From positions 14,502,053 through 14,566,052 of the forward strand of contig OX344750.2 in the NCBI GenBank assembly GCA_947034885.2: a stretch of DNA of 64,000 nucleotides, written 5' to 3'. Position 1 is the stretch's first letter. The number at the start of each line of letters is the position of its first letter. The position numbers and the translations under genes were made by a program. The DNA is from Thuidium tamariscinum. Lineage: Eukaryota > Streptophyta > Bryopsida > Hypnales > Thuidiaceae. The notes under the pieces are model-generated. The model was not told where the DNA came from, did not search any database, and saw only the letters and a list, made by a program, of their open reading frames with translations. Shown here piece by piece: positions 24,001-60,365 of the stretch.

Positions 24001-27000
24001 TGGGTCATCTCCTTCAACGACATTACGTGCTGCAACAGGAACTCTTGCTTCAGCAGATTCTGCAGCCACAGCGGGAGATTGGACTGCCACTGGTTCAGCA
24101 CTGGGAACAAGGAGACGAAGCTGTTCAATAAATTGCTCTTCAATAGCTTGCGCTACGGCTGCAGCTTGTGCGCCTGCTTGTGGTTGACCATCGTCTGTCC
24201 AACTACTCAAACGGCTCTCAGTCCTACCGCCCCGCCTACCCATCAGGTACACTGGGTCCATTGTGAAGTCTAAAAGGGGTGGTGCGCCACCGAGCCCCCT
24301 CTCTCCAAAAAGACCTTCAGCAGTATGCTCAGAGATCATAGGCGCGTCATACATGTAAAAGTGAGTAACATCTAAGGCTCCCCCACCGATACCCCCAAGC
24401 ATAGCCTCTGCGTCCCGAACGATACTGGTGGTGCTATTCCACAGAGAATTGCTTGCGATTGCCGTAGTGACGCCACCCCCTGGGGTTGCAGACGGTCTGG
24501 TAAGTAATGGGTGATGGAATGCACCACCACGCTCACCACCCGGTCGGTCAGGGAACGGTCTGTAGGTTGCTGTCCGCCGACGGTCACTGCCTCCAGGTCT
24601 TCGGAAAGATCCAAAAACGTCATCCATATTCATTCCCTGAAATGGGTCTCCTGGGAAATCAACCAAATTACTGGGACCCGTATGACCCAAGACCTGCATA
24701 GGACATACAATGCTTAGCGTCAACTATATCTAGAAGGTCAAGGGTCACAATTATGCAGCATTCCCGACCCTCTAACTAGACTGATCTATCCTAGTCCTTG
24801 AGCACTTATTTTCGAAATTCACACTATATTCACACTACGCTGAACTAGAATTGCATTGTGCGAATTTCCACTCAAAAAAAACATTTTCGTAATGATGCCT
24901 GTTTTGGGCCTTTACTAATAGAATAAATCGATGCAATATTACCGTTGCATCAATTATCTACATTCATCTATTATTAGTACTTCAAGACACCACGTGAGAA
25001 ATCAGCGCCAAAAAGTCAGAAGCAGTCTTCTAAACAGTCCAAGGAACAACTAGAAGCTTTTACATCCTGAACTATGGTTAAAATAAGAACTAGAAGAAAA
25101 ATACCGGTTATGTCACATAATGTCAGATAAAAAATATTAGACACAACATTCAAATTACATTGACTCGAGGAAATCCTGCTGATAGGTACCTGAACATGGC
25201 TAAGACCTGTTAGGCCATCACGCCACCGGACTTCAATCACCCGATCTTCGCGCCAATCATCATCCTCGTCCTCATCCTCCTCCTGAACCATGTCTTCATA
25301 TTCATCACCCAAGCCATTGTCTTCGTGATCCTCGACATCTGTGTCAGGTGGAGAAAGGTGCGGTACCCCTGCATCCATGAACATATCTTTGTAAATTCAG
25401 GACGAACCCAAATTTACAAGTGGTATTAACAAGCTGCCTGCAAAAGTCTGTCATACTAAACTTCAAAAGGTAGGATAATATGCACATTAAACAAATAGTA
25501 CACACAAATTATCGAATATTTCATCTATGTCAAACGCCGCGCATAATAGGGCACACTATGGCTGTTACCCTGTGTAATGAAATTTCATTCCAATATTTTA
25601 GACCAGTTCAAGAAACTCATCCAGCATAACGACAAGACACCCTTGTAACAACAATTAGAAATATCTTTTCTCGAAGCTCTTAAAGACATGGCAGTACAAT
25701 ATACCCTAGTGTCTAAGACATATACAGCGAGACACGTTGCCGAAGCAACTAAGCTAACAGTTGACGCTAAAACTACGAGAAACGCAATGATAAGAACATA
25801 GTGATTAATACCTTCATCACCATTCATGTCATCTTCATCTTCGTCTTCTTCCTCTTCTTCCCCATCATCTTCCCCCTCGTCACCGTCCATGTCCTCCTCA
25901 TCCTCATCCTCTTCATCCACAATCTCGTCATCTGGTCCATGCTCCATCCTGTAATGCATGACAGCAGCAGCATCTTCAAGTTCGGCAGCATCCTCGGCTG
26001 CCTCGCGCATGAACTCCTCCTCAGCTTCTGCTTCAAGGCAAGCCTACACAAATACAATTCTCTGTTAAACAGCGAGCAGCACACAGCATGCCGATATTGA
26101 AATAACTAGAGTCACTTGCAATAATACTCAGACAATGAACAAGAAATATCAAGTGACTAGGGGCTCTGTACAGATAGGACAACGCACATGCATGAATAAT
26201 ATTCACAATTATGCCCGGAATACAACACGCACTACGTCAGAACTCTCCACAAGACAAATCCAGATAAAATCGTTGACTACGCACAACAACCAACATAACA
26301 TTTACCCCTTCTGCTGGATCTCTCTCAAATCCGTCGTCATGCTCCATCTGCTCCTCGCGCACAATATCTGTGCTGTCAGGAAGCGAAGGTCCTACTTCTG
26401 GAACTGACGTATCCTGAGGCACGGAGTCTCGCATTGTTTCGTCCCTAGCCTGGGGCTGAGCTCCATCATCTGCTCTGGTTTCAGTCTCAGCAAGAACAGT
26501 TACCAGTGTCGGCTGTTCAGTACTCTCTTCAGTAGCTTTTTTGGGAGCAGCCCCATCAGAACCATAAGCACGCTCTGTCATGCTGGCTGCCCTTGTAAGA
26601 GCTTCAAGAGCTTTCAAAATAGAGTTCACAAGCTTGGGCGCATCGGGATGATCCAAGTCGATTACCTGCACCCAAAAGCGATTAAACAGTTAACTTACGA
26701 GTAAACTTATTGGGAAAATTCTCCATAGAAAGTCTCCTGTGAGACCTGTGTCTGGAATTGGGCAGCATGAGCGTTTGTTCAGTGCTGTCTACAGTATAGA
26801 AAAACACTAACTTAACTGTAAAAATTGTAATATAAGACATAAAAGCCACCAAGAGGTATGATTATACAAATTGTAGAGAATGCGGGTACCATGGAGTTGG
26901 ATGAAGAGAACTACCTGAAGAGTACGAGTAAGTGCTTGGACCATACCCGCATCCATCATGGACTTTGCCATGTCCTGTGAAAATCCAGGAGCCTGGGCAC

Positions 27001-30000
27001 CTCCTGTAGGGGAATGAGAAGAGAGGACAGAATTCACAAGATCCACAAATGCCCGGACTTTTCTGCTTGGGGACTGTAAACCTTTTGAACCCTCAGAATC
27101 AATCCCTGATGAAGTCGGCGAAGCAGTTGTAAGAGCACGTGCAATCTCCACCACAACCCTTCTCCTGCCTTCTCCTGATCTCACACAAACTGCCATCACA
27201 AAATAGGCAGCCTTGTCTGACAACTTTTCTCTCCATTCTTCCTCATTCACCTTATCGTTGACCTTCTCACCAGGATAAGGAAGTAGCCTGTGAAGAATGT
27301 GGTAGAGAAGACCTCCGTGACCAACAACCTCTACACCACCCTGTGATGGACCTCTACCTTGACTGCTCTCTAAATCCCTTCGAAGGACCACACTTACAGC
27401 CGAGGAGTACATTAGAATGATATCAGTGATAAGTCTAAGGATGAATGTTACTTTGGCTAAAGCTGCGGAACTTTCTGACATATCTGAATCGCCTTCTGAT
27501 TTTGATGTTCCAAGGTCCTCAACCTTACCCTTTCCTTTATCCTTCACTTCTGTGTCATCTACATCCATGGCAGTGCTGTTATCCTTAAATGACAAATCTT
27601 CCTCCTTATCATGTACAGGGTCGGCAGTAGCGGAAGGATAGTGAAGAATAACGTCTAACAACTGGTCAATGACCAATGAGAAGCTGTGGGGCACGACCTT
27701 CTTGTGGTGATGGCCCCTAGCACTCTTCCCAGATTCATGAACTTTTGTGCTCACATCTACATCAACATTTCTGGACTTCTCAGAAATTTTTTCCTGGCCT
27801 TTCTCTTTCTCCTTTTCTTTCTCTTTGTCTTTGTCTTTCTCCTTCTCCTTGGCCAGGACAATTGTGGGACGACCGCCAACTGTCTCAAGTTGGCAAACAA
27901 CAGAAGCAGCTTGCATGAATATGGCAGGATCACGAGACACGACTGGGGCCATTGCAGTTAAGAACATCCGTGGAGAAACCCGGCCATTGTGCCGTGACAG
28001 AGTGGTAATAAGGGTATGTCGAATTTCTGTTTCCATTGCTTGTTGTAATGTTTGTGGATCCTCAAGGAGGTGACGAATGATAGCAGCAGCGACCGTATCG
28101 AATCCAGGGAATAAGCAGCTCCGTGGAAGTCTTAAAAGGGCAGCCAAACCACCTGAAATACACAATCATTTTGCGATCACATCCTTGTGCGCAAAGATTG
28201 TCACGAAAATAACCCGGAATAATGCCAAAACCGCACAAGAAACTGATGGCAACGCCAAACACAGACAAGCTATATCGTGGAAGTGCAAATTTCTAGTTGC
28301 TCAACTGAACTGTCCATGAATTACTCACCTGAATCGAAGAAAGCAGAGGCGATAGGGTACGACTTTGTCAGCCGGGCACATAGCTGCAGCACAGCCTGAA
28401 CTGTTGCAGATGGCAATTGCATCTGAAGAAAACCGGCAGCCACGGACATAGCCCTTCTCTGCTCGTCCTCTGACATATACCCAGACGGTTTCCCGAGTAC
28501 TGAAACGAACGGGCTCGCAGTAGTTTCCTTCTGCATATTGAAAGCTTCTGAGAGTTGTTCCACTGCTGCAGGCGTACCAGAACTAACGCCCATGCTGTTG
28601 CTGGCGGTAGCAGCAGTCGCTGACCCACTGGGTTGATCAGAAGTAATCTTCAGTTTACAGACCAACATGTGGTCCAGAACTAGCAAAAGAGCAGTAAGCC
28701 ACTTGGGGATCTCGTTCTTCTGAGAAGTTTTCACAGGTCTGAATTGTTCAAGAACGTCTAATGCAATGCTCACTGCTCCATTCTCTGCTGCAATCTCCCG
28801 AGCCGTGCTGTCTTCACTCAAAACTAAAGCAAGGGTGTGCGAAATGGTAGATAGCGGACATGTGTCGGTCAATGATCCGTCTACTTTGCAACTTTTCAAC
28901 TGACGAACCAAATAAGATATGACTTGAGTGCGGTCCTGACCCTTGTTACGGTTGCACATAGTCACCAACAGATCTGTAAGAGGGAAGGCAACAGCTTCTG
29001 TGTTCTGGAGAAGGTTCATGCATGTCAAGAGCATATCTTCAACTGGAGGAACTTGACTGACTTCGTGATCGACAGTAGATTCCTTATCCTGGTTGTCTGG
29101 TGCTGATTCTTCTTTGGATGGACCGTCACTGCCCAATGACAGTGCCAATGCTCGAGCCAACTCATCGTCCTCCTGCAGATATGTATCCAAAAAAGGACTC
29201 AACGATCACGGACAATCTGAAGAAGCTAATGAACGGAAAAAAGTTGCGCCGAATGAACATGAAGAAGAAAAAGAAGCCATCGGAGGTTACTTAACTCACA
29301 GGTTCAAAGGTCAATATATTGAAATCAGCCCATACCTGTGCTGCCTCCTCAGGATGGCTGAATAGCCACTCCACTGCCATTTCTGCATTGTTGTCACCAA
29401 CACGACGAAGTGCTTCTTCCGCTCTGGAGCGTGAGAAACCCATTTCGACAATCATTGAGATAGAAGATTCATCAGGAGGGGGCCCTGCCAAGCGAGCCCC
29501 TGCACCAGCAGCTCCTCCAGCACGACTTGTCTTTGCATCCCCAACACCTGTGTACACATTCGTGATGATAGAAGCTATTGAGGTGATGAAAGTTGCACTA
29601 CACTGTGCAAATTGGGGATGATTCCACACAGGTAAAACAACTTCCAGAACTTGAGCCTGCAGGCTCCGGACAAAGGCCTCAGGATCCTTGGCCAAGGTTT
29701 CTGATACACCAGCCACAGGTTGTATCAATATCTGTGCCATTGGGGCGGGAGTCAGCAACAGCGAGGATGTAACAAGGTGCTCCATCAGGCGGGCATAGTT
29801 GCGCAAAGTATCTAAAAGCCAGGAATTGGCCACTGCTTTCTCTTCAGATTTTTCAGCCTTTGATTTCCCATTCTCAGTTTCCATTGGGGAACCTCCAGAA
29901 CTTTGTGGCAAAGTCCATAGCAGTTGGCTAGTTGCAGCGAATGTTTTCAATAGCTCCTTGATTGCTCCATGACCATAGAGGTTATTCAATAAAACAGTGT

Positions 30001-33000
30001 TGCAAGTTCTTCGTCTACTATCAAAGACTACTGCTAATATATCTTCCACTACCTTCCCCAAGTATCGGCATTTGACAGAGACAGAGAGCTCTCCTTGTGA
30101 GGCCTCCCCGCGCCCACTGAAGCTGAGATTTTCACGAAGAAGTTTTGCTAGATTCCCAGCAACCGTTTTAGCAGCGAGAGTCAACGGAACAGTATCATCC
30201 CTCCTACGCGAAGGCATCAACATGGCCTTCCCCAACGCCACGTATAGTCCCCTAGCGGCTGCCGTTAGCCTAGTCATCATGTCATAATTCATCGACTCAG
30301 GAGATTTTCGTTTGGCTACCTCCGAGGCAGGAGGGGACTCCGAAAGGCCTGCAACACCCTCTGTATCAACCTGGGTAGCATCTGCTTGGCGAGCCAATCG
30401 ACCCAAGCGAGCAATCTGAGTCAGAGCTTCGGCATTAGCCGCGTGATCTCTTCGGCTTCTTCGATGGGGCCCATCACTTGCGTGCAGCACAGGTAAGAAC
30501 TCGGGCTCCACGCCCCAATGAGATGACGGTCCATTCCGAATATGTACAGGATTCACATACCTAACCACTGGATAAGGCTCCGCTACATCCTCCCCTTCTC
30601 TCGTCGCTGTTCCCACACCTACACTTGCCGGAGTACTGCTACCGCCTTCTGCTTCCTTCTTTGACTCAACCTTTGCATCATCAATCTGAGCTATTTGCCA
30701 TAGGACCTCCCTATGAACTGTGCCAACGTTGCCGAGGGCTTCCGCAGCTCCTGAGCTCAACTCGGTCATCATGGCGTTCGAGCTCCGCACTAAGACTGAC
30801 GACAGAGACAGATAACATTCTGCAGCCGAGAGAGAACGAACAACCTTGTTCCTTTCTCCAGTGTCCAAATCAGAAAGTTTTGTTCCTGATAGAAGCTTCA
30901 GCTGATCCAGAGTTGCCTGCATCATAATGCTACAGTACATCACTTTCCAATCCTTATTGAGATAATCAAGAGATTTCGAAACGACCTGTCCATATTTTAC
31001 ATGATCTGAAACGAGATTTTAAGAAAATAATGTAAAAAAGGGCAGATTTGAAAAGAAAGGACCACGAAATCTGCAAAGATTACCTGCAAATGCTCTTTCA
31101 GGGCACCACAAACTGATCGAGTCAGTGCAACCGAATGTTGAGGGGAGAATGCACGAAAAGTGACAGACATGTTATGTGCCGTGGAAGAGCCTCCAAAGGA
31201 AACAGGTAGATGCGGAAGAGTGTAAAGCTGTAGTAGAGCCTCGATTCCCTTCTTATCTATAAAAACACGACTAGTATCTGCATTTTGAAGTACTGTTTCC
31301 AAAAGTCGTACTGCATTGTTTATACAGTCAGGTAAGAAGGTTTCCAAGTTACTGTCAGCTCCAGGATCTTGTGACTGCTGAAGAGACGTTGAGGCTCTAG
31401 ATAGATTGTCTGGTGTTGCACTGGACCTCTCCTCAACATCTGTATCCATCGGCACAGGTGCATCCACACTACTGGTATCAGGGGCATCTACAGGCACTGC
31501 TGGTTCAACCGGCGCACCACCAATAGCTGCAATGGTCTTCAAAATTTCGATGCACATGTCTATACCCGGACCTCTCAACGAAGGTGCATGTCGAAGTAAC
31601 TCATCGAGGCCTGAAGCGAGAGATCCAGGCGTGTCATTTGCAAGAGCTCGGACGTATACTTTCGATGTGAAAATCTTAACGAAACAACCAAGAGCATTCC
31701 GATCTCGAACTGCCTGTAAACCTGAGATATTCAAGCACAGGGCATCCAAGCTGTTTGGTATGCATCCAACTGCCTCAGAAGATGGCAGCACACCGGCCGT
31801 TATAGCATCTAAGAAGGCTGATGGTAGCCCAGCCGCATCTAATGTAGCAAAACAAGTTGGGTCTTTATGGATAAGATCACTCATAACTGATGCTGCCAGC
31901 GAGAAAACACCTCCCCCAAATTCCTTAGCATGCCTGAAATCAAATAACCATGATAAAACATGATTTAAAATCCGTAACAATAAAAATAAATCACATACAA
32001 GAAGTGTAAGATAACTAATACAAGACACAGACATTAAAGCGTGTAGCTTGCCGCAAAAAAGAGCCCCTTACCTAAAAATGGTACAAAGGCAGTATGGCAA
32101 ATCGCTCTCTTCTGAAATATGGAGTCTCGTAGAGTTTCCAGGAGCGTATGTGCCGAGGGCGATAGCACGCAGTAAAGCCTTCAGCAATAATCTTTGATGA
32201 TAAGGTATAAGAGTCTCTGCCTGCCCGGTCACTTGAGAAGATTGAGAATCCACGTCCTCATAGCCCAATTGATATAGCGGAGGTGTATAAACCATTGCAG
32301 CCTTGCCCTTAGAACTCGGCTTCGATTCTTCTCTTTCAAACTTGACTCCCTCAGCAACACGAGTGACTTCTACTTTCAACCTCGTAACAGTATCACCTAG
32401 ACCACCCAAATCACGGAACAGAGTGCCAGCTGGGTTGCTGTAATCCATAAAAGCCTCTAATATATGTACAGCTGCACTAACCAAATGTGTATGTTGCGGA
32501 TCCATATCCTTCAGGAGAGGGAGAAGTGTGGGAATCAATCCAGCCTCTCTTAGGGCTGCGCATCCAGATGATGAAGAGACCAGAACAGTCACTAAAGAAA
32601 GAAGTCCTTCCACAAATGCCACAGAGCATCCTGATGATCCTTCAGTGATCGACCCAATAGCTTTCTGCATAAGACTCGGTAGAATGCCACGGTGACCACC
32701 AGCACTAATGACATTCAAAACATTTGATTGTCTGGGCCTGTCCTGAGATTGGGCCGCTAGCGCAAGAATCGCCAATAGCCGGATCTCCTCTTGAACGGTA
32801 TCTTCATATCGCAACACCGTCACTAATTCATCCACAAATTCTGGCTCATTTATGAAAAAGGCCGTCAGGTCTTCATGATCAGGATTTGACTGAAGAAGAA
32901 CTGTGAAAGCAAGCAGTCTTATGCGTATGTGCTGCCTCCTCGTTTCAAGGTTAGCAAACGCCCGAGCGAAACGAATGCGAGTAAGCAGAGAGAATCTTAA

Positions 33001-34103
33001 ATTCGATGGTACTTGATGTTGGTCAACTAACTGTTTAAGTAACTGCAGATCCCCCTCCGGTCGAAGATGAACGTCAGCAATGTGTATCACTCTAAGCCCA
33101 GAGGTGTTGGTCTCCCCATGAAGGGAAGAAGAATCGCTTTCTGCATAAAACTCAAAATGAAGGGTAGCCCCTAGTCTACACGCATTAGCATCACAACCAT
33201 TATCCTGAGCACACGCCAATAAACCTAGTCCTTCTTCCTTGCCACCCCAGCCCTGTGACAAAGAGAAAAGGCGAGCATTGAGAGTTGTGTCTCCATGCCA
33301 TCTCATAGCTCGATTTGACTGCACGGGTTTTTTCACGAACGCTGCTAAAGTTTGCAAAGCTGCGATAACTATGTCCGGGTCTGTCGAAGCAAACATCAAT
33401 GATACATGCTGCCACCAGCCCCAAATCCCCTGATACGATTAGTCCCACGATTAATAGAATGTTCTTGTCACAATTAAACATGTAACACCACAAACAAGCA
33501 GTCTACTTCACTTCAAGATATACCTGCCTGATGACGACTTCTCGAGAAAGGAGATATTAAGTGGCAGAAAGAGTCTCTAACCATCAAGGACCAATAGAAC
33601 TTTGACATCAAGCATACACAAATCCAGAAGACTAAAACCTTTCGATATTAGAGAGAGAACAGAATCACTGCAAAACAATAAATAGTACCTCGTTGCTGCT
33701 GTATAGGTACTTATTCACGCAGTTTTCTAATATAATGCGTGTAACCCTGAGAACTTGCAATACAGCTTCCTTCGGAAATGGACCATCTCCTTCCAAAAAT
33801 TCACCCTCCAATTGCAAGTCTTTCCTTAACTTTACATGTTGCTCAAAGAAAACCTCGAAGTGGTTGAACAAGTCCACCCAATGATAAAATTCTCCCTGTA
33901 CAGTACAGTACCAAACGTAAGTAGAAAGAAAACAGAGCAAGGATATGCATAAGGAAGCATCCTCACGCGTGAGGACTTAAGGATATGAGCCACACCTTTT
34001 CATATTCCCAACTGAACCTGCTAAGAGGAACGTCGATGTTATCTAGCGGCGTACTTACTACGCTGGTGATGAATGCCTTCACTTTCGGTGGCTGCCACAA
34101 CAT
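18003..34103 (-). CDS. UPL1: UPL1/UPL2-type HECT E3 ubiquitin-protein ligase
   Basis: Exons (minus strand): 34103-33996, 33895-33689, 33408-32072, 31933-31084, 30916-29336, 29172-28329, 28152-26915, 26665-26306, 26043-25812, 25386-25190, 24693-23128, 22883-22539, 22387-22177, 21949-21666, 21565-21186, 21044-19865, 19727-19581, 19418-19338, 19148-18923, 18734-18595, 18385-18279, 18105-18003. They join in frame to 11,724 nt, or 3,907 residues; Arabidopsis UPL1/2 are near 3,700. Order: N-terminal DUF908/DUF913 armadillo-like region, UBA, UIM, acidic tracts, DUF4414-like ALP repeats, then HECT. The catalytic Cys (HTCFNQ, about residue 3874) lies 33 residues from the end. The enzyme takes ubiquitin from an E2 as a Cys thioester and transfers it to substrate lysines. 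All introns are GT-AG and 100-500 bp. The start is the uncertain part: ATG 34103 is in frame but may lie in an intron. Confidence 0.95.
21186..22883 (-). CDS. UPL1: UPL1/2 exons 12-15
   Basis: Exons 22883-22539, 22387-22177, 21949-21666 and 21565-21186. They contain the family blocks [84 protein letters not shown] and [15 protein letters not shown]. Exon 12 includes a lineage-specific Gly-Ala-Thr run ([20 protein letters not shown]). Exon 15 is a low-complexity Ala/Pro/Ser segment ending in [13 protein letters not shown]. Junction phases all agree. Confidence 0.9.
23128..24693 (-). CDS. UPL1: UPL1/2 exon 11: disordered linker and DUF4414-like repeats
   Basis: One 522-codon exon. The first half is low-complexity, rich in Gly, Ser, Glu and Ala. 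It includes the family signatures [12 protein letters not shown] and [20 protein letters not shown]. The second half has a tandem pair, [20 protein letters not shown] and [20 protein letters not shown], followed by [20 protein letters not shown]. These match the short helical repeats found in UPL1/2 and HUWE1-type ligases. Confidence 0.92.
25190..26665 (-). CDS. UPL1: UPL1/2 exons 8-10: acidic region
   Basis: Exons 26665-26306, 26043-25812 and 25386-25190 (about residues 2056-2318). They start with [20 protein letters not shown] and run into long Asp/Glu tracts (for example [16 protein letters not shown]), then [15 protein letters not shown] and [17 protein letters not shown]. The acidic stretch is typical of the family and is probably a disordered interaction surface. 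The flanking introns (426-496 bp) are the longest in the gene. Confidence 0.92.
26915..28152 (-). CDS. UPL1: UPL1/2 exon 7 with Lys/Glu run
   Basis: A 1238-nt exon (about residues 1643-2055). It opens with [18 protein letters not shown] and [20 protein letters not shown], both strongly conserved in UPL1/2. It then carries an alternating Lys/Glu/Asp run at about residues 1743-1764 and ends LTRTLQ. A comparable KEK/KDK run exists at the same place in the Arabidopsis proteins. Confidence 0.92.
28329..30916 (-). CDS. UPL1: UPL1/2 exons 5-6: UBA and UIM ubiquitin-binding modules
   Basis: Exon 5 (30916-29336) ends with a UBA domain, about residues 1317-1358: [20 protein letters not shown] and [11 protein letters not shown]-like [11 protein letters not shown]. 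Exon 6 (29172-28329) begins directly with a UIM-like helix, [15 protein letters not shown] (about 1362-1376). Ubiquitin-binding modules next to each other are diagnostic for UPL1/2. Exon 5 also holds [23 protein letters not shown] and [12 protein letters not shown]. Its 5' edge was chosen after ATGATGCAG because that restores the phase and aligns HLQ|ATLDQL with family members. An alternative acceptor is at GGACAG about 70 bp upstream. Confidence 0.93.
31084..34103 (-). CDS. UPL1: UPL1/2 exons 1-4: N-terminal DUF908/DUF913 region
   Basis: Exon 1 as read (34103-33996) gives [20 protein letters not shown] and ends WEYEK. Exon 2 gives [20 protein letters not shown] and [15 protein letters not shown]. 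Exon 3 includes [35 protein letters not shown] and [16 protein letters not shown]. Exon 4 includes [20 protein letters not shown] and [12 protein letters not shown]. All match the alpha-solenoid N-terminus of UPL1/2. Family members carry additional residues before PPK. The codon before CCA in exon 1 can be supplied by a splice (acceptor TTGTGGCAG|CCACCG) from an exon ending ...TCC GAG|GTGCGT at 34157, which would give SEPPKVKAF, so the true start may lie further upstream. Confidence 0.9.
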
Positions 34104-45542: not shown

Positions 45543-48500
45543 TTAATTAAAAGTACTAGAGAGTTCAGTCTTGTTCAGGACCTCTTTGTTAGTGCATTAA
45601 CTACTCCAGAAAGCAATAGTGAAGATGAATTTGATTACAGTTGAATGCAATAATCATACACAGATGTTTCACTGGGCCTTCTACATAGGAAACCCTAGTG
45701 CATTGCATTGAACGGTCAAGTAGTCCGTTGAACACAATCTAATGTCATGGAAATAGGGTTAACGATGTTCAATTTCAGAAATTAAGTGTGCAATTGGGTT
45801 CAGGGTCTTCAATTTCTTAAATTAAGTAGAAAAGCAGTTAGATCTTCTGAATGGACATAAGAGATGACTTGCTCACTTGCCTTAAAATATTTACTAGTAG
45901 AGAGTTATGTAATGCTCATAGGGACATTTAATTCTCCAAAGGTCAATGTTGTTTGCTTCTTTGCTTATTCCGCAGTCATTATCTTGGTCATTCAAGTTTA
46001 AGAAGTTTAACTAAAGCTTTCAATTGACATTGTGCTAGAAAGTACAAATATGATTCAATGTGTAGCTTCATCTTGGGAAGAGTGTATATATTTAATACTC
46101 CATATTCACGAAATATCATACGGTGTCGTACTAGCTTTCATATGAAAGAGCGTGAAGGGATGTCATTGAAAGTCAAAAGGATGTAGAGTATATATTATGA
46201 TAAGATATTCTCCAATTATTGTTCAAACTTTGAATTATGATAAGGTAATCCCCAATTATTGTGTAGACTTTGAATTAGGATAAGATGAATTCTAATTATT
46301 GTCCAAACTTTGAATTATGATAAGATGATGTGGATCACTTCATGTCACGTATTCATGCATGCAATGTACATGTCAGTCTACAAATGATGCACTACAAGGA
46401 TGCTAATTGAAATTCAAGAATCCTTTAATACTTCAATTATTGAGCGAATTGTTGTTTGGGGGGAGAAGAAAAATAAACATTGAAGCTGAATTGGTTCATG
46501 ATTTTAGAAGATAAGAGTTTTAATTTAGCTAATAAAATATAAGACTATGTTCTTAAAGACTTCAAATATTAATCATTTTAAGCTTGGGTGTCTTGGAAGA
46601 AAGGTCACTGTGGTTGTGATTCCTTCATCTAAGGCCATTATAGAAGAGACAATGCACATATGTGAATGATGGAAGGATTTGAAATAGGTGTCATTTTGCT
46701 AAACCATGTAGTGACCTTGCGAAGGTCAAAAGATGCATCAAGTGATACTAGAGAAACTTAATTTGAAAAAATTATTGAATAGTTGTAATTCAATTACTGT
46801 ATGGTATGTTTTTCTTGAAGACTCAAAATATTTTCTAAATAGGTCCAATCAAAAAATCTTATAATTTACATTTTTCCTCATTTTTTTTTGAGTTTTGTAG
46901 GATTACTTATGGAAATTGGAAATTGAAGTTGTCACTATGAAGGACTTCAAAATCTAGCACCTCTTGATATATGAGAGCTTGGTAAACTGTTAAAGGCTTT
47001 AGTAAATTAATATTGTAGACACATTAAATAGTTGATGAGTTCCATTTTTCTAGGTTTTCTTCTTGATTAGTTTGTTGTACCTCATTAAGAATGGAAGGAA
47101 GCAGTTCACTAGAAGCACTTAGGTTGTCTTCCCTTTTTTTCCATTAGGGGATACAATAGAAGAAAGAGTTTATGAATGTGAAGAAATCATAGAAGAAAAG
47201 CTAATATTTGTTCACGAATTTCTGAAGCAATTAAAGATAAAATATCATGGAAGTAGTTTTTTCCAAATGTTTCATACATGACAAGGGTTTTTGTCGAAAG
47301 AATTATGAACCTTTGAAGCTATAGTGCTATACTTTCTTGTAACATGTGTTTACTTAAATTCATACTATTGATGTAGAAGTTGGGCTAGTAGAGAAGGATA
47401 GAAATAACTTTGTAATTAGGGATTACTTGAAGTCATTCATAATTTTGAGATTGTAGAACTCCTGTGTAATCATAAGAAAATAATGTAGAAAAAAAAATGA
47501 TTGGACTTTACAAAAACAATTACATTGAATTGAAGCTATGTAGTAATCCTAAATGAAAATCTCTTTTATACTTGAAAAAAATCTCTAGAGGATTGTCACT
47601 ATTAAAAAAATGTACTTTATTATTTTTGAAGTTATTGGTTGTCTGGGAATTTTTTAGACTATGTTGGCAATGATAGAATGTAATAAATTTATTTTGGGTT
47701 TTTTACTCATTACTTAGAAGTAAACTAATGTTGAAAATGTTTGTGTGCACCAGAGGGTGACTAGTATGGGAAGATTGAAGACTGAATACAACTCAGAATT
47801 CTAAAGCTTTGCGTGCAAGATTAGTTGAATATCATTGACAACCAAGAACTTGAGCGAAGTCAGTATTAGTAGATAAGGTACTTAAAGGAAAACCTTTTCG
47901 TTTGAATTAAATGTCAAACATATATTTTGGAAGGAAAGACTTGGAATTAAAACAAGACATGTAGATTGTAGTAATTCTTAAATAAAACATAGAAAATTAG
48001 TTTAGAAATTGAGAGGCTCAGATACTTTATTCATTGTTGTGTAAATATTGTATAGTTGTGAGATTGTATGGTACACAAAGTGTAAAGAGGGTGGGAAGTA
48101 CATAAACTAACTGATCTTGCCTATTCTATTAAGAACATTAGGTGCAGTGGCATTCATTTTAAGAGTGTCCGTAGTCCACTTGAAAGTAATATGCATGAAT
48201 GATAGTACTCTTGAAATGTAATGATTTATGAAGATGTAATGTGTTGAAATTTATTCTTTCTTGGAAAAAAAAGGGAGCATAACTGTATTTGTAATTTTGG
48301 TTGTTGTATTTGCAATGACATGCTAGTCACTGTGTTCATATGTTTTCTCCTTTGTATTACCTAATTGGAATTCTCAAATTCAGATTTTAATTTTAGAGTT
48401 AGGGCTACTTAGTGCTAGAAGGTTATTCCTCATGAACCAAAAATGGAGATGTCACAAAGTCATTAGACAATAGCATTACTGTGTTGAATGTAGGGATTTC

Positions 48501-48597
48501 AACTGAGTTTAATAAAAGAAAATATTGTAGGTGTGAAGTATTAATTTATCATTTTAAAAGGTCCGAGATCAACTAATTCTTTAATTGCATTGTTATA
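45543..48597. other. Intergenic DNA upstream of the broken methyltransferase-like gene
   Basis: No gene recognised. It contains the 40-bp tandem repeat at 46193-46328. I looked for long terminal repeats matching the region after 52.7 kb and found none by eye. Confidence 0.45.
46193..46328 (+). repeat. 40-bp tandem repeat, 3.4 units
   Basis: Units beginning attatgataagat, attatgataaggt, attaggataagat and attatgataagat start at about 46193, 46233, 46273 and 46313. Each contains 'caattattgt..a.actttga' (one has 'ctaattattg'). Confidence 0.75.
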
Positions 48598-49197
48598 ATG
48601 GTTTGCAGTGTATTATGGCACCAAAGGTTCACTCAGTGGGTGGACCACGGATGGTCGATAGAAGAGAACGGTATAGAGAAGCCAAATTTATGGATTACAG
48701 ATTTTCCTATTCAGGAAGGGAGATATTGGACTCCTTTAGGTACTTTGTATGGAGTCATCGAACTTGAGGATACAGATGAATTGTATCGATTGTATGCAGC
48801 TCTTTTGAAGGAGAATTGGATTCTAGTGGCTGAACGAAGCATGAAGCTTGCATCTATTGAAGAAGAAAATGCCAATGCTTTGGAAGAAGGAGATGTTTCA
48901 CAAAGACAAAGAGTACATCGTCAGCGTATATTATCTGCAACAGAGAATGTAGTGGAAGAGCCAGTGGCGGAAAGTGACATCCATGAAGTTGCGGTTGTTG
49001 AGGGCAGTGCACCACTTATTCCACCTTCAACGGAAATAAGTGTAGAAGAAGTATTAGTGCAACGAGAGGGAAGGACGAATGATGAAGAAATTGTCCTTGC
49101 TATTCAAAATGAAAGTGAAGTTGAAGTACGGAGAACAATAACGGAAGCAAGGGTTGAAGCAAAAGTTCCAACAGTACGTTCTGACAATCGTGTGTAA
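48598..49197 (+). pseudogene. N-terminal open segment of the broken gene
   Basis: About 199 codons in frame 1. Sequence such as WSIEENGIEKPNLWITDFPI, YWTPLGTLYGVIELEDTDEL and ALLKENWILVAERSMKLASI looks like real protein, then becomes a Glu/Val-rich linker. It ends in TAA at 49195, after which the same frame continues. The true start is unclear: ATG 48617 lies in another frame (MAPKVHSVGGPRMVDR), so an early frameshift is possible. Confidence 0.5.
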
Positions 49198-49263
49198 CGA
49201 TCGGAAGTTAGAATGGCCAATGTGAATGTTCGAGGACATAGTGTTGGAAGAGGGTGAAGTACA

Positions 49264-49830
49264 GGAAGAGGACGTGGTATTGGAGGTAGAGGAAGTGGTG
49301 TTCGAAGTGGAGGAAGTGGTGTTCAAAGTGGAGGAAGTGTTGTACGAAGTGGAGGAAGTGGTGTTCGAAGTGGAGGAAGTGGTGTTCGAAGTGGAGGATG
49401 TGGTGTTCGAAGTGGAGGAAGTGGTGTTCGAAGTGGAGGAAGTGGTGTTCGAAGTGGAGGATGTGGTGTTCGAAGTGGAGGATGTGGTGTTCGAAGTGGA
49501 GGATGTGGTGTTCGAAGTGGAGGATGTGGTGTTCGAAGTGGAGGATGTGGTGTTCGAAGTGGAGGATGTGGTGTTCGAAGTGGAGGATGTGGTGTTCGAA
49601 GTGGAGGAAGTGGTGTTCGAAGTGGAGGAAGTGGTGTTCGAAGTGGAGGAAGTGGTGTTCGAAGTGGAGGATGTGGTGTTCGAAGTGGAGGATGTGGTGT
49701 TCGAAGTGGAGGATGTGATGTTCGAAGTGGAGGATGTGATGTTCGAAGTGGAGGATGTGATGTTCGAAGTGGAGGATGTGGTGTTCGAAGTGGAGGATGT
49801 GGTGTTCGAAGTGGAGGATGTGGTGTTGAA
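49264..49830 (+). repeat. 21-bp tandem repeat (~26 units) encoding a glycine-rich heptad
   Basis: The unit is cgaagtggaggaagtggtgtt, with aagt/atgt variants. Because 21 is a multiple of 3, every frame stays open: frame 2 gives FEVEEVV, frame 0 gives CSKWRKW, and the minus strand gives a Ser/Thr/Asn polymer. Only frame 1 (R-S-G-G-S/C-G-V) joins the flanking protein segments, through GRGRGIGGRGSGV before it and GGERGRRGGCILGRRFGQS after it. It is therefore the ancestral reading, an RGG-like low-complexity domain. Confidence 0.85.
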
Positions 49831-50113
49831 GGTGGAGAACGTGGTAGAAGAGGAGGTTGTATTCTTGGTAGAAGATTTGGTCAATCTACAGTTCCACAGG
49901 ATTCTCAAGTAGAAGACATTGTTGAAGAGCAGTAAGTATCAGAAGCTATAAGAACAGAGAATGTGGAAGAGCAAAGTGTACGTACTCGGTGTACAAGTCA
50001 GGGAGAACTTCATAGAGCAGCAACGGTTGGTCCTTTAGAACAACACAATGATGGTGAAGAGGAAATCTATGATGATGATTCAGTAGAGAAAGAAGTGGAG
50101 GAAGGATGGAGGA

Positions 50114-50770
50114 ATGTACCGGCACGAAGTGTTGCAAAACTACTTGTATTTTTTCCAACAAAGAATGAGTTCAGAGCTGGATAAATATGGAGTCAAGAAA
50201 CTATTTTTCAATGCCAATATTGATAGTATCCGCAATGTTGAAAATGTAGAAACAAACCATAGGACTCTGATGGAATGGTGGGTGACAGAGATGTATGAGC
50301 GTTTGAAGGGATCAAAGGCCGATGGAATCAGTGCAATAACACTTCGTTCAATTGCATATCTTTATGAAAGTACCAATGATGAGGGGGAGACAGAGATGGT
50401 ACAAGTTCCTTTTAGTCAGGAAGGTGCAGCACGAGAATTTGAAGTTGCATATCTGACTCATTGTAAAGTTGATCCAACTATGCCAAGGGATATGGTGAAG
50501 CACCATTGGTTGGAGAATCATATTTTGTGGGAGGCAGTGGATGGCCAACACGTTGTCAGTGCTTGTAAACAAGCCCAACAAGAACACAAAGATGGAAAAA
50601 TGTCAGAAGAGGAGTTCCATTTGTGCTTTGGAAAACGAAGAGCAAAGTTCTTGGTATATAACAATGCTCAATTTTATATTGAAGCATCGATACGAATTAA
50701 TGCAAAGGAGTTTCAACGGCCTTTCTACACTTCCTTCTACGAAAATTTGATGAAGTTGCATGACATATAG
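50114..50770 (+). pseudogene. ParB/DGQHR-like segment of the broken gene
   Basis: This 218-codon frame is the longest intact piece. Features in order: GVKKLFFNANIDSIRNV, TLMEWWVTEMYERLKGS, ITLRSIAYLYEST, KVDPTMPRDMVKHHWLEN, then LWEAVDGQHVVSACKQA (DGQH at 50540-50551), KRRAKFLVYNNAQFYIEASI and ending LMKLHDI. The pattern hydrophobic-DGQH-x-hydrophobic-x-A resembles the core of ParB N-terminal and DGQHR domains (typically DGxHR). Here the usual Arg after His is Val, so either the family lacks it or the match is fortuitous. The TAG at 50768 is followed by more in-frame protein-like sequence to 50866. Confidence 0.4.
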
Positions 50771-51043
50771 AAAGCTTGTGATTGTTCTAGTATAGTTGCT
50801 CAAGTTGATGATGTATAGAGAGCGAAAGCAATGATGATGGCAGCAAGTGCATTGCACTGTCTATAGTAAAGAGTTGCCGCAGCATATGACGTTGGGAGAG
50901 TTGTCAAAGAGGATGGTTGACTATATAAGACATGCCTGGAATGATGATGAGGAATCGTATGAGGCAGAATTGTAGGTTTGCAAAGACTATAAAGAAGGGA
51001 AGTTATTCTACAGCAAGAGAGCAGAGGACATAGTCAGGATGTG

Positions 51044-51830
51044 GAGAATGTATTAAATGCACGATGGGATTGGCAAGTAGCCCTCTCTGCAGTGCAAGGT
51101 CAAGAGAGTGAAAGAGTAGTGCATGTGTGATGTAGGAGGGGATTTTTTGAAGAGGAGTACGTGGAATTAGGAAAACCATGTTTATGGATTTTCGATTGTA
51201 GACGAGGAGGTGCAAAAGGGCCAGACAGAGAATGGATAGATGATGATTACAGCAAAGTAATGCAGAAACTTCAAAATTGGATGTCTTCAATTTTGAGGTG
51301 GACTGCCATTTTTCTTTTCCTGGCAGGTATACATTTTGATAAAGCAATGCAGTCGAAGATTATCGGAGGCATCTCATTGTTTGTAGGGTTTGCAGATATT
51401 TGAACGAAGAATAGTTCCTGCAGGCATGTGTAAATGATCTATACCATGGAGGACAAAAGCAATGTGGTGTGCAAATAGTGGGAGACATTGCCATCATTAT
51501 GCATTATCTACCAGAAAGTGGGCCTATAGGGAACATTCCACGTAGTACGGATGATTTGGATGTCATATTTAAAGACAGTTGGAGTACGAAAGTGGTGCCT
51601 CGAGTGGAGGACAAATTTGAGAGAACACCCTTGGAATTGAAGAGAATGGTGCAAATGTATCTACCACGAAATTGGGATTAGTGACTTTGGGCATTACAAT
51701 GGCCGTTCCAGGGATTTTGGAGAGTACTTTTGTAGACAAAGAAATCATCATTATGGAAAGAGCAACCAGTCGTACACAATTTGTATACAATATACTCCAA
51801 CTGCTGTACGGTGAGAGAATGGTGATGGTC
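51044..51830 (+). pseudogene. DNA-methyltransferase-like segment of the broken gene
   Basis: Frame 2 (51044-51403) gives RWDWQVALSAVQGQE, a TGA at 51128, then PCLWIFDCRRGGAKGPDREW-IDDDYSKVMQKL and RWTAIFLFLAG. This resembles the motif IV neighbourhood, where an Asp-Pro-Pro-Tyr/Trp loop would be expected in an active enzyme. Frame 1 (51411-51681) gives VGDIAIIMHYLPESG, RSTDDLDVIFKDSW and KFERTPLELKRMVQMY. The last resembles the 'K(P)xxLxxxxIxxY' helix before motif I. Frame 0 (51672 on) continues LVTLGITMAVPGILES, EIIIMERATSRTQFVYNI, in the place of motif I and the acidic strand. The canonical DPPY and FxGxG are not visible, so this is either a remote homologue or a damaged copy. Confidence 0.4.
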
Positions 51831-52690
51831 AATGCTGTGAGTAGAGCAGCTGAACGTAGAGTTACAGATCGTATGAGTACAGGAGATGAATCGCCAATTA
51901 GTGGTCGTCGTGCAAGAGATTCAAATGTCGAGCCTCTTGGATTGGAAAGGCAACCTCGATCAGGGAGTACCTTTTCAAATAAAAAAAACACTTCAGAGGA
52001 AGAAACAGAAGAGAAAAGAGACTGGAGATGATTTCGGAGTTGCATCATCAAGTGGAGATAGTAGAGATTCTGAACGAACTCACTCTGACGATTTTCGAAG
52101 TTTTGACCATGATATAGGCTTACAAGCCACAGATGATGGATATACAGCTCATAGAGACCAGGAGGGCTTAATGAAAGTGGAAGAAGATCCTGATTATGTT
52201 CCACCAGAAACTAATGTTTTTGTGAGGAACAAAGAAGCTGAGGTTGTAGGAGTTGAGGCAGGAGAAATTGAAGGTACAACAACAGAAGAAGAACCAATAT
52301 CAGCATTAGAAGCGTTCAGCACTCGAAATATAGAGAGCTTGACTCCAGGTGAAGGTGGATATTATTATGACAAGGATCAAGTGAAATATATTCGGACAAC
52401 ATGAGAAGATGGGAATTATGTTTATAAATGTGTTGTTTCAGTTATGGAAGAATCTACAGAGTATCCTTCTTTTGTAGAGAGAGTTGCAACCCCTATTTTA
52501 GATGCTATGGTGGGTAGGGCATTGGAGTATGCTTCTCCACCTCTACTAATTCCAATAGGTGAACAAGGTGTACATGAAGACACATAGGCAATTGGTGGAG
52601 AAGAAACAGAGGACTTGACGGAATCATCTGTATAAGTATTGGAGACTCTTGAAGTAGAAGTGTAGTAGAAGCAATGAAGTTAGAAGTATA

Positions 52691-55075
52691 TGTCATTGTA
52701 GTGTAGGATGTGGAAATGAGTGGAATTTGCGTGTTTATTTTGGAAGTGGTTGCAGGTGTTGGATTTTTTTATTATAGCGAAAAATATAGAGTAGAAATGA
52801 GAAGGCAGTGGATGTGTTTTGTATGTCATTCTCTTTCTTTAAATAAATGTTTTCATAATTATAGTTATTTTATAGTGTAGGAACTATGAGGGCAATGAAA
52901 TGGTATGTTTTTGGTGTATTTGTTGCTCTCAGTGCAACTAGAATGTAAGTTGAAGAAATAAATGTGTAAGGGACATAAAAAAATTTATTTATTTTCAACA
53001 TCCTTTGATGTAAAGTGTTCTAAAGCATTTATAAAATAGAAATTTGCATATAACATTGAAGTTGTTAACAAAAAGATTGAAAACTAGTACTCATAAAAAA
53101 TGAGGGGGGACCCAAGTTTTTTTGTAACACATGTTCAATGAATAGTAGTGCAAACGGTGATTGCACTTGGCCAAGTGCCAAAATGTCTAATTCGGTGTTG
53201 TTATGAGTTAAAAAAACATAGAAGAAAAAATATCTTCTATGTTCATATTTATTTTCATTAACCTCAGAAGGATAGGCCCATGACTATTGATTTCAAGCTT
53301 CAATTGTTATCACTCTATATGCTTCCATTTTACAACTAGATGCAAATGAAAAAAAATTTATTTATTTGTTAGGGATACAATCATATTTGTCTACTAAAAA
53401 GCTATAAAATTTTCAAACTTTTAGAAAATTTGAAATTACCATAAATTTCTTAAGAAAAAAATTGAAAAAAAATTCAAATCACTGTAGTTGTACATTATAG
53501 TATTGAACATCATGGTATAAATCAATGTTATTATATCACTCTAAAAGTAGAAAATCAACAAACCAAAGTTAGAGATACAAATTTCATATTGCTACAAAAT
53601 GTTGAAATGTATGAATTTTTCCTAGAATTTTTCAAAATTTCCAATTGGAGTAGAAACTACACTTAGAACTTCATTTAATAAGTTAGATTCAAATTTAGAA
53701 TAGATCATTTTAATGGCTAAAATACACATCAAGAAAAAATAATAAGAAATGGTTGAAATACACTACAACTCTACAAGCAAGGTTAAGCAAAAATCTAGGC
53801 ATAGCAAAATATGCCAAAATATAATATACACAAGAATATACAAGAAAGAGAGATGTTGGACATGCAATTGAAGTAAAGGATTTTTTTTTAGTACAAAAGT
53901 TCATATGCTATTAAAGCCTCTTGATTGATGGAACAATGTTTGGGAGGAAAAATCAATAATAAACATTGAATTGATCAAGTTTCACCAAACATCAATGTGA
54001 TTTTGATTGTGGAGTAGTAAAGATTGATAAAGGAGGTAAAAATAAGCATCTAATGTAATTGCAAATTTTCATTCCTACCTTGTTGCATGGTACTTTAATG
54101 TTACTTCACCTCCAAACAAGTGAAAGTCTAAAAGATGATTTTAATTGCATTCAATACTTTGACTAATAAATTATCAAGAAATCAATTTTATCATCTTGGC
54201 AATTAAAAGAAGATTTTAGATTTTAGTATGAATAACAATCTATGAAGTCTTAAAGTAGTGACCATAGGCTTTTACATTCAAAAAGTGTACACTTAAATGA
54301 GTTACTTTTGTAAACAATTCACAATTATGTGTAGTTAACTTTAAATATATTAATGATGGAATTGAAATCCACCAAATATATGGTATAATTTGAGTTATTT
54401 GTAAAGTCCTCCTCTCTTTGGGCATGACTTTTTTTGAAGTTGAGAAGGCAATTATAGTTGAAGCATCAAACTTTTTTGCAAGATACTTATGTCACATGAC
54501 TTCAAAAGTGGGGACCAAACCTTTTTAGGCACCATTTTGATGGAAAAATAAGTTTCATATCCACTTTTATTTTGACTTTTTTAACTCAACCGGATTTTTC
54601 AGAAAACTCATGGGTTTAAACCCTGGTTTAGAGTACTTTACAAATAACTCAATTGTCCTCAAAATTAATTTTAAACTATTTGCTAGGTCAATGTCTTTTT
54701 CAACTCTAAATAAATAGACAAAGAAATATTTTGGATCCATAGGAGAAAATTGAGCCATTAATGAGGCCTCACTTTTTAATTGCACATCATCCAAGTCTTT
54801 CTACTACAACTCCATTTGCATTGAATGACATAATAGTCACAAGTTGAGAGCTTATAAAATATGCAACTATCTTCAAGTGTCTACTACAAATAGAAATGTA
54901 AAATTTTTGTATCTCTATACACATAGTCTTAGGTAGAATTTTATGTATTATTCTCATTAATTCAAAATTTCAAAACCCAATTATCAATCTCAAAAGTCAC
55001 TAATTAACCATTTTTATAAATACATGTCACAATTCTATACATAAAGAACAATGTACTACTTCTAACACTAGTCTC
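52691..55075. other. Intergenic DNA, nothing recognised
   Basis: AT-rich, no repeated termini found. A 75-residue minus-strand frame at 54567-54794 is isolated and unsupported. Confidence 0.5.
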
Positions 55076-57086: not shown

Positions 57087-59000
57087 GTGATTAATTACTC
57101 AGAGACCATTTATCTACGCAAGTACGTTCCTCTATCGCCATGGGGTGGAGAAGGTGTCAAAGACCCTCAATCCCTCTTGGAGTTTCGCTCCCGCCCAAAT
57201 GTTACAGAGCTAGAATCCGGCTCGTCGATGTACTGTCCACGTCAGGCATGCACGGCAACTACTGCGATTGAATTGCCAAGTAAAAACAAGTATCAAATAC
57301 ACACCGAATTTATCACGGAATGAAATAACAACTGATATCAAATTCATCATATATAAGTATCTAATGATGATCAATCGGCGGGGAAGAATCCTGCTCATAT
57401 GTCGGCGTGATCGTGAAGAGTGAACGTCGCGATTGGCACTTGAAAACCACAAGTAATAAGTGGGTACCGAATTCATCATGGAATGAAGTAACGACTGTTA
57501 TCAAATCCATATATTGTGTACAGCTAGCAATGCTCAGTAGCTACCATATTACAAGAAAAGACCACGAAACTTGAATTCAAAATTAAACAAATTTGATCCC
57601 GATCAAGAAGTGGGGTCTTACTCTGAAGACGAGGTGATGTCTGTGTCGGGAAATATCTAAGATCCTCCGTCCCTCTCGGAGTTTCGTTCGTACGAGTCGG
57701 AAAATTTTCGCCCAAGTGATGGGGAGAATCTTGATTGGACGATTGGCTCCTGCAAACAATAAGAAACAAGTAGGTACCGAATTCATCATGGATTGAAGTA
57801 GCAAATGTTACCAAATTCGATCATTGCGTGCAGTTAGCGATGCTCAGGAGCACATTATAAGAAAAAGATAACAAAATGTGAATTCAAAATTAAATAAATT
57901 TGATCCTGATCAAAGTAGTGGAGTCTTACTGTGAAGACGAGTTGATGTCCATGCCCGTGTCCGTGTCGGGGAAATATCCAAGATCCTCCGTCCCTCTTGG
58001 AGTTTTGTTCGTAGAAGTCAGAAAAATTTCGCCCAAGTGATAAGGAGAATCTTGCTCGGCTGATTGACACCTGAAAACAGCAAGAAACAAGTAGGTACTG
58101 AATTCATCATGGAATGAAGTAGCGACTGTTATCGATTTCATTGTATGCAGCTAGTGATGCTCAGGAGCGCATGATAAGAAAAAAATCACAAAACTCGAAT
58201 TCGAAATTAAGCAAATTTGATACCGATCAAGCAGTGAAGTCTTACTTTGAAGACGGTGGTGCGACGTTCATTGTCACCGGTGAAGAAGAATCCTGCTTGG
58301 CCGTTGCCCCTATCGTGCCAGGAGAAAGTTGGGACCTAACAACAGGAAACAAGTAGGTACCGAATTCATGATGGAATGAAGTAACAACTGCTACCAAATT
58401 CACTATGTGCAACTACCGATGCTCAGGACAGTATTACAAAAAAAAGATGAAAAAACGTGAAGTCGAAATCAAACAGATTTGATCCCGATTAAGTAGTGGG
58501 GTCTAAGTACTCTGAAGACGGTGGTGTGACGTTCATCGACACCGGTGAAGAGGAATCTTGTTCGGCTGTTGCCCCCATCGCACCAGGAGAATGTTGGGAC
58601 CTGATAACAACAAGAAAAAAGTCCGTAACGAATTCATCACCGATTAAAGCAATAACTGTCACCGAATTCACTATGTACAGCTAGCGATTGATGCTCAAGA
58701 GTTAGGAGCACATTACAAAAAAACGATTACAAATTTACTCAAATTCGAAATCAAACGGATTTGATACCAATCAAGTAGTGGGGTCTTACTCTCAAGACGA
58801 GGTGCTGTCCGTATCCGTGTCCGTGTCGGAAAAATATCCAAGACCCTCCATCCCTCTTGGACTTTTGTTCATACAAGTCAGAAAAATTTCACCCAAGTGA
58901 TAGGGAGAATCTTACTCGCCCGTTGTCCCCATCGCGTTGGAGGAATGTTGTGATTGGCACTTGAAAACAGCAAGAAACAAGTAGGTACTTAATTCTCCAT
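57087..59000 (-). repeat. Tandem array of exon+intron-like cassettes (~260-360 bp each)
   Basis: Repeats are anchored by 'aagtaggtaccgaattcatc' at about 57450, 57768, 58087, 58349, 58617 and 58978. A further diverged unit lies toward 57150. On the minus strand each unit contains an exon-like block bounded by an AG acceptor (several are preceded by TTTTCAG- or TTATCAG-type tracts) and a GTAAGAC or GTAC donor. Examples are 58070-57930 (141 nt), 58335-58246 (90 nt) and 58600-58511 (90 nt), all multiples of three. Translated blocks share EQDSPYHLGEIFL, NKTPRGTEDLGYFPDTDT and QDSSSPVSMNVTPPSS. The unit at 57749-57622 is 128 nt and frame-shifted. No flanking gene was recognised, so this may be a decayed internal part of one. 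Confidence 0.55.
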
Positions 59001-59997: not shown

Positions 59998-60365
59998 TTA
60001 GTCCGTCCGCCCGTTCGCTCCATCTTGACCGTTTGCTCGCCCGTTCGCGCGTCCACCCGTCCGCTCCATCTCGGTCGTCCGCCCAAGCATCCGCTCCATC
60101 TTGACCATTTGCTCGTTTGTCCGCACATCCGCCCGTCCGCTCCATCTCGGTCGTCCGCCCAGGCATCCGCTCCATCTTGACCGTTTGCTCGCCCGTTCGC
60201 GCGTCCGCCCGTCCGCTCCATCTCGGTCGTCCGCCCAAGCATCCGCTCCATCTTGACCATTTGCTCGTTTGTCCGCACATCCGCCCGTCCGCTCCATCTC
60301 GGTCGTCCGCCCAGGCATCCGCTCCATCTTGACCGTTCACTCGTTCGTCCGCTCGTCCGCCGTCC
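59998..60365 (+). repeat. 76-bp GC-rich tandem repeat with 152-bp higher order
   Basis: 'ctccatcttgacc' begins at 60018, 60094, 60170, 60246 and 60322, exactly 76 bp apart. Alternate units differ in phase-specific blocks (gcccaagc...tttgctcgtttgtccgcaca versus gcccaggc...tttgctcgcccgttcgcgcg). Since 76 is not a multiple of three, the long minus-strand frames across it shift register at every unit, which argues against coding. Confidence 0.85.

Follow-up and report, generated by a model that had tools for sequence, protein, structure and literature searches.

A stretch of 64,000 nucleotides of the Thuidium tamariscinum genome (assembly GCA_947034885.2, 363 Mb in 19 contigs; contig C2, OX344750.2, positions 14,502,053 to 14,566,052), here called the window and numbered from its first letter, very probably holds one dead copy of a transposon-like element that is dispersed in this genome, spreads as DNA, and bears a single large gene, the protein of which has an unrecognized fold. 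The full explanation that we favor, in which the identity of this element is taken together with a mechanism for its protein, is reasonably probable, and the proposed mode of action considered separately is tentative. A first-pass annotation of positions 48598 to 52690 had described a decayed plant gene in which a glycine-rich repeat is joined to ParB/DGQHR-like and DNA methyltransferase-like parts derived from a prokaryote or a virus.

RESULTS

Anatomy of the window copy

The window copy is broken, and it belongs to a family with many copies in the genome, as the first-pass annotation had supposed in calling it a remnant of a dispersed module. It carries stops and deletions, and it aligns with the best-preserved relative, L039 (copies fetched from the genome carry L numbers), as seven tblastn pieces, with five in-frame stops in 706 aligned codons. 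The frames from which that annotation started do lie consecutively on the plus strand, with DGQH followed by WIFDCRRGGAKGPDREW, RSTDDLDVIFKDSW, FERTPLELKRMVQMY, and EIIIMER in the order it gave, and the glycine-rich repeat that it noticed is the 21-bp array of an arginine/glycine-rich middle. The 3' boundary of the element lies at 53199, beyond the 52690 at which the annotation had ended. The features of the copy are as follows.

47216..53199, plus strand: decayed element copy; it is homologous to the contig C1 copy from 47216 on, the 5' limit is provisional, and the 3' limit is sharp and common to other copies, which diverge after it.
48602..48608, plus strand: tttgcag, a putative splice acceptor just 5' of the start codon; most of 14 aligned copies have a comparable sequence 5' of the ATG, which is not evident in L021.
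48615..52665, plus strand: what is left of one large frame, 1,495 codons long in L039, with stops, frame changes, and deletions; ends placed by eye against L021.
48615..49197, plus strand: N-terminal part, starting ATGGCACC; a frame change lies near 48760, where ~340 bp of L021, L023, and L025 are missing.
49268..49845, plus strand: 21-bp tandem array of 27.5 copies with 96% matches, encoding an SGG[C/S]GVR repeat.
50087..50770, plus strand: 227-amino-acid (684-bp) open frame with the conserved NHR ... DGQH ... SIRIN region, from the frame list and the alignment.
50540..50551, plus strand: DGQH motif (gat-ggc-caa-cac), invariant in alignments A3 and A4.
51029..51030, plus strand: deletion junction, with ~545 bp lost by comparison with L021, L022, and L023.
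51131..51403, plus strand: WIFDCRRGGAKGPDREW piece, from an open frame and alignment A4.
51415..51681, plus strand: RSTDDLDVIFKDSW and FERTPLELKRMVQMY piece, from an open frame and alignment A4.
51621..52031, plus strand: GLVTLGITMAVP ... EIIIMER piece, which closes the conserved core, from an open frame and alignment A4.
51877..52587, plus strand: C-terminal part, acidic and evolving faster, from frames and substitution rates.
53162..53179, plus strand: 18-bp palindrome near the 3' end, tgcacttggccaagtgcc in the window; a perfect palindrome in L021, L022, and L023.
53182..53199, plus strand: terminal aatgtctaattcggtgtt, the end of the element, from the alignment of 3' ends.

Read from 5' to 3', the element consists of the acceptor-like sequence, a conserved N-terminal part, the arginine/glycine-rich, low-complexity middle, a core of ~736 residues that includes the DGQH and FDCRR regions, and an acidic tail. 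After this C-terminal tail come ~0.5 kb of 3' DNA, the terminal palindrome, and ~20 bp more, where in-register homology between copies ends.

Copies of the element in the genome

The 684-bp piece that carries DGQH has 20 other DNA matches genome-wide, some of them parts of one copy, and tblastn searches with the open frames of two relatives gave at least 59 and at least 67 rows in the genome. The fetched copies fall mostly into three identity groups, namely, A (the window, L021, L022, and L023), B (L028 to L033 and L036), and C (L039 to L045); the grouping covers most of the fetched copies, with several fragments outside the groups and several copies seen by tblastn outside the fetched set. 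At the protein level, A and B are ~50 to 59% identical, and C is ~36 to 48% identical to the others. The 21-bp period of the middle also occurs in three other clade A stretches, with 4.7 to 10.7 copies compared to the 27.5 of the window.

A search of the genome for intact copies, as the first-pass annotation had advised, yielded a far better preserved one, since L039 has an uninterrupted frame of 1,495 codons. Among 27 stretches aligned to it (some of them parts of one copy), only L039 itself covers the full 1,495 codons and is free of stops; L040 spans the same codons with four stops, and the large gene has a length of ~1,540 codons in L028 and L029. DGQH and FDCRR show no variation in the seven-row alignment A4. 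Because the same pieces recur elsewhere in the genome, in the same order and as longer frames, and because DGQH and FDCRR are invariant, the motifs of the window are more than chance.

The copies also show how far homology extends beyond the frame. L021 and L022 are 96.4% identical across 3.7 kb up to the 3' end; past it they are not homologous in register, and a 131-bp inverted similarity lies there. On the other side, they have 2.6 kb before the ATG in common, including one 445-bp repeat, and noncoding DNA was therefore copied too. The copies on contigs C3 and C7, the latter cut off within the C-terminal part, likewise have 1.5 kb before the ATG in common. The 445-bp repeat (L046:690-1134) in the 5' part of L021 and L022 occurs in at least 39 other places at 89 to 95% identity, and its size is like that of a miniature inverted-repeat transposable element. 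Inverted duplicates of family pieces were seen at C6:20930031-20931666 and C1:28355099-28359038, with little or no difference between the arms in score and identity. Several of the stops in L028, L029, L023, and other copies fall at tryptophan codons that are intact in relatives (e.g., in KLRDIW and LQNWM). Such stops suggest a deamination-like decay.

A conserved 3' end

In an 11-row alignment of 3' ends, the sequence is degenerate only in L026, and the terminal 18-mer stands at the expected place in 11 of the 19 stretches searched. L039 has the clade C form of the end, the last letters of which are altered in L040. The end is recognizable across the three clades though their 3' noncoding DNA otherwise hardly aligns. 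A genome-wide search with two end variants, allowing up to 3 mismatches in 36, found the A/B form in 28 places and the C form in 27 (55 in total, on 11 contigs), with 0 matches for the reversed patterns used as controls. When the 55 ends were compared with 158 listed rows of coding and 5' noncoding family stretches, a stretch on the same strand lay within 9 kb upstream of 30 ends and downstream of none (0/55). An opposite-strand stretch was found for 1/55, and this single case is the inverted duplicate at C6:20.93 Mb. The result was the same with 54 chosen rows. Three shortened copies, identified by coordinates only, have an early part of the element and the 3' end within 0.8 to 1.2 kb of each other (C3:26.13 Mb, C5:11.55 Mb, and C6:17.24 Mb).

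At the 5' side, a short AGGGTNTNGA similarity links the C3 and C7 copies and L028; it is absent from the C6 stretch and from the window, and we therefore claim no 5' terminus.

Selection on the protein

Ratios of nonsynonymous to synonymous substitution rates (dN/dS) were calculated by the Nei-Gojobori method on the core, with stop codons left out. Between lineages, the core ratio is 0.10 to 0.24, with values of 0.102 for L028/L023, 0.124 for L021/L023, 0.129 for L033/L021, 0.163 for L028/L033, and 0.222 for L039/L040; the core of the window gives 0.24 against either L021 (531 codons) or L023 (530 codons). In comparisons of clade C with the others, synonymous change is saturated. Purifying selection between lineages acts on the protein core, and the C-terminal part is looser than the core in dN/dS. 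The two youngest pairs have far higher ratios (0.654 for L039/L041 and 0.785 for L042/L043). This pattern fits a gene that would have been under selection in its lineages of origin and freed from it afterwards in dead copies; L040/L045 is the exception.

Searches for ParB and methyltransferase domains

The identity that the first-pass annotation had given to the protein was not supported, as profile searches were negative for the window pieces and the long-frame relatives alike. Scans for Pfam and NCBIfam families gave nothing above the cut-offs for 9 window pieces, 4 long frames, and 7 aligned members, and neither PF01555 nor PF02195 matched in any of these sets. In the whole genome, PF01555, PF02195, and PF14072 gave 0 matches, while control genomes were matched in 11/14, 10/14, and 2/14 cases, respectively. 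The best E values of the family scans were 0.009 (one PHROG in one member) and 0.013 (NosL), neither of which recurs across members. The Pfam names that appear at E values of 0.01 to 10 (Cyclin_C, NosL, and others) were dismissed as chance, being below the cut-offs and different from member to member (Cyclin_C in 2/7). A seven-member profile had no match among 177,635 Protein Data Bank (PDB) sequences at E values up to 10. The proposed prokaryotic or viral origin fared no better, as a pattern-plus-tblastn search of IMG/VR and GTDB contigs found no relative, and 50,697 phage records, searched at E values up to 10, gave none either.

The residues expected of the two domains are present only in part. 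The DGQHR domain is described in PMC4619093 by a QR pair, DGQHR, and FxxxN. The family has HR in place of QR and an invariant N ~50 residues past DGQH, but with S rather than F (SxxxN versus FxxxN), and the arginine of DGQHR is absent in 10/10 rows of A3, where V or I follows the invariant DGQH. Of the methyltransferase signatures, catalytic motif IV, (D/N/S)PP(Y/F/W), is absent in 7/7 rows, which have the invariant FDCRR instead, and the DxFxGxG loop of motif I, which binds S-adenosylmethionine, is also absent in 7/7 rows, with LGITMA, LGVSMA, or VGITTS at the aligned place. An acidic residue closes IIIME/VIVLD in 7/7 rows.

For profile-profile comparisons, phage methyltransferase profiles were built from fetched loci, with the Wizard and Javan sets taken by eye as ParB fusions. 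When the known methyltransferase sets were compared with one another, the probability was 98.6 to 99.7% (four comparisons). The best value for the family was 1.3% in one set of comparisons and 4.3% in another, the latter for the methyltransferase-like part with one motif X-II profile, and the reversed family part reached 5.4%. Against a null of 57 other viral families, compared with six profiles, four for motif X-II and two for ParB, family scores were within range for 6/6, and the reversed family scored higher in 3/6; these 57 are clusters of open frames from both strands of viral loci, minus matches to three reference proteins, and may include some spurious frames or undetected methyltransferases. 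The best place was the proposed site in 2/6 profiles (the RcIroh motif X-II profile, rank 3 of 58, and the Wizard ParB profile over DGQH, rank 2 of 58), ranks that prove little because its length is ~8 times the average for the comparison families. Unforced hhalign runs with two methyltransferase sets (whole domains) placed LELKRMV..LP..WGLV.LGI ... IIIMEG of the family on motifs X, I, and II. Single-sequence structure models of two window frames had a mean predicted local distance difference test score of 38.2 and 49.5 (the latter for 51621-52028), which is very low confidence. We consider the identity of the family as ParB plus METHYLTRANSFERASE to be unsupported by profiles, PDB, phage searches, and catalytic motifs. 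The order of HR, DGQH, and N, together with the two best-placed weak alignments, leaves a degenerate fold possible.

Neighborhood of the element

On the minus strand, window positions 23032-33438 contain pieces of a large ubiquitin-ligase-type gene with DUF908, DUF913, UBA, and UBM domains, a set that we take to be that of HUWE1/UPL1 proteins. The GC-richer block at 16 to 36 kb is therefore probably in large part a host gene. Two tandem arrays lie at 57430-58688 and 60001-60365, with periods of 262 to 321 bp and of 38/76/152 bp. A scan of the window with Rfam gave no match, and no tRNAs were found in it.

DISCUSSION

We read the family as transposon-like, its end being unusual and its large protein having no recognizable domain. 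In the mechanism that we propose, this protein would work on the element's own DNA. The conserved core would recognize or process the terminal palindrome, and the arginine/glycine-rich middle and the acidic tail would provide flexible contacts to nucleic acid or chromatin. A splice just 5' of the start codon would make the mRNA. Copies that lose the frame would then decay, for example, by changes of tryptophan codons to stops.

Several observations weigh against this explanation. A scan of 4 frames and 7 cores recognized no transposase domain (the clade C N-terminal part lies outside that scan). No terminal inverted repeat was found either, since the 3' end has no inverted counterpart in the window or at 18 loci, with the 5' end not fixed. 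By eye, neither L039 nor L028, where both flanks are visible, shows a target-site duplication, the 5' limit being uncertain. The copies have no agreed 5' terminus, and in none of those in the data can the whole element be followed from a secure 5' boundary to its 3' end. Copies with frames 86 to 91% identical have different upstream DNA, a feature that a simple element with fixed ends leaves unexplained. The terminal 18-mer was not found in 8/19 stretches. Similarly, 25/55 ends lack a family stretch in the 9 kb upstream; such ends are compatible with deletion derivatives, which they may be. The relaxation of selection in young pairs is also uneven, with dN/dS values of 0.234 for L040/L045 (dS, 0.053) and 0.335 for L021/L022.

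Some of these same observations would be expected if the large gene were a host or accessory gene, such as one for anti-silencing, in a nonautonomous or captured-gene element that is moved by an unrelated transposase from elsewhere. This explanation is somewhat unlikely, and it draws on the missing transposase domain and inverted repeats and on the ends that lack an upstream family stretch. In addition, Arabidopsis VANDAL elements are reported to carry sequence-specific anti-silencing proteins, so that an element's own nontransposase protein recognizes element DNA (PMC5735166, PMC10398659). Nevertheless, the same gene has been kept under purifying selection in three diverged clades, as expected if the element needs the protein, and no copy of the end has been shown with a different long gene. 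Multiplication of an ordinary host gene family by segmental duplication, with most copies now pseudogenes and the conserved 3' sequence acting as a transcript-end or regulatory signal, is distinctly improbable. It would explain why noncoding upstream DNA is carried along, including the 1.5 kb that the C3 and C7 copies have in common, but not why in-register homology ends at the same 3' place on different contigs in three clades, why the end is present on 11 contigs, or why shortened copies, as judged by coordinates, retain the 5' part and the 3' end. That the frames arose by chance in repeated DNA with no gene is hardly credible; the window copy is itself broken, but the 1,495 stop-free codons of L039, the residues conserved in three clades, and a core dN/dS far below 1 already refute this idea.

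A further explanation keeps more of the first-pass annotation, in that a degenerate ParB domain of the DGQHR type would be followed by a dead N6/N4 methyltransferase domain, both of prokaryotic or phage origin and now forming a pseudoenzyme. We regard this as unlikely, and the modest probability that we keep for the fold is due to the two profile ranks and the best-placed weak alignments. In its favor, NHR ... DGQH ... xxxIN follows the order of QR, DGQHR, and FxxxN, as given for DGQHR domains in PMC4619093. The unforced alignments to motifs X, I, and II, the best placement at the proposed site in two of the six profiles, and the acidic residue that ends IIIME/VIVLD in every row point the same way. 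Phages, moreover, often fuse ParB folds to N6_N4 methyltransferases, and mutation of a conserved arginine abolished nucleotide binding, as stated in PMC12704722. On the opposing side stand the lack of any substantial match in Pfam, NCBIfam, PHROG, or PDB and of any relative in viral and prokaryotic contigs or phages; the silence of the three Pfam profiles in a genome search whose controls matched; profile scores in the null range where known sets reach near certainty; and the absence of DPPY, the motif I loop, and the DGQHR arginine from all rows that cover them. Very improbable, in our view, is the more specific idea of a captured partition-like module whose sole gene would encode a ParB/DGQHR-like protein with an inactivated methyltransferase-like domain; this protein would recognize the element's 18-bp terminal palindrome as ParB recognizes parS and would serve as an end recognizer for movement or for protection from silencing, and not as an enzyme.

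Several known systems can be compared with the transposon-like element. Helitrons have a hairpin-capable palindrome near the 3' end, no inverted repeats, a CTRR 3' end, and a Rep/helicase protein. The element resembles them in that such a palindrome lies near its fixed 3' end and that no inverted repeats were found; however, it ends in GTGTT and not CTRR, and no Rep/helicase was present in the 4 frames scanned. VANDAL elements are of the Mutator type without terminal inverted repeats, and the likeness to those of Arabidopsis that carry VANC proteins is by description only, with a palindromic 3' end and a single large gene here. DGQHR/DndB proteins (PF14072 and TIGR03187), of the ParB/sulfiredoxin superfamily, are alike in HR, DGQH, and the invariant N ~50 residues on, whereas the family differs in its lack of a profile match, in V or I after DGQH, in S for the F of FxxxN, and in its context of ~1,500 amino acids. 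In phage ParB-N6_N4 methyltransferase fusions of the Wizard gp78 type, the similarity is that DGQH lies upstream of a region with a weak hhalign match to motifs X-I-II in two other methyltransferase sets; the family differs in having no DPPY, no DxFxGxG, null-level scores, and an insert of ~270 residues between the two regions. Revolver and Superior, described in PMC2851119 as transposon-like gene families of plants, are alike by description only. Literature searches, partial in reach, recognized no description of this family, and only this eukaryotic genome was searched; the family may therefore already carry a name in a repeat library.

A long gene that has been selected in three lineages of dispersed elements, and for which Pfam, NCBIfam, PHROGs, and PDB sequences offer no recognizable domain, makes a good candidate for an unrecognized class of mobilization or anti-silencing protein, and the fixed palindromic 3' end offers a direct target for DNA-binding work. 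Should a ParB/methyltransferase ancestry prove true by structure, this would be a rare instance in which a phage-type architecture has become a eukaryotic element's own protein.

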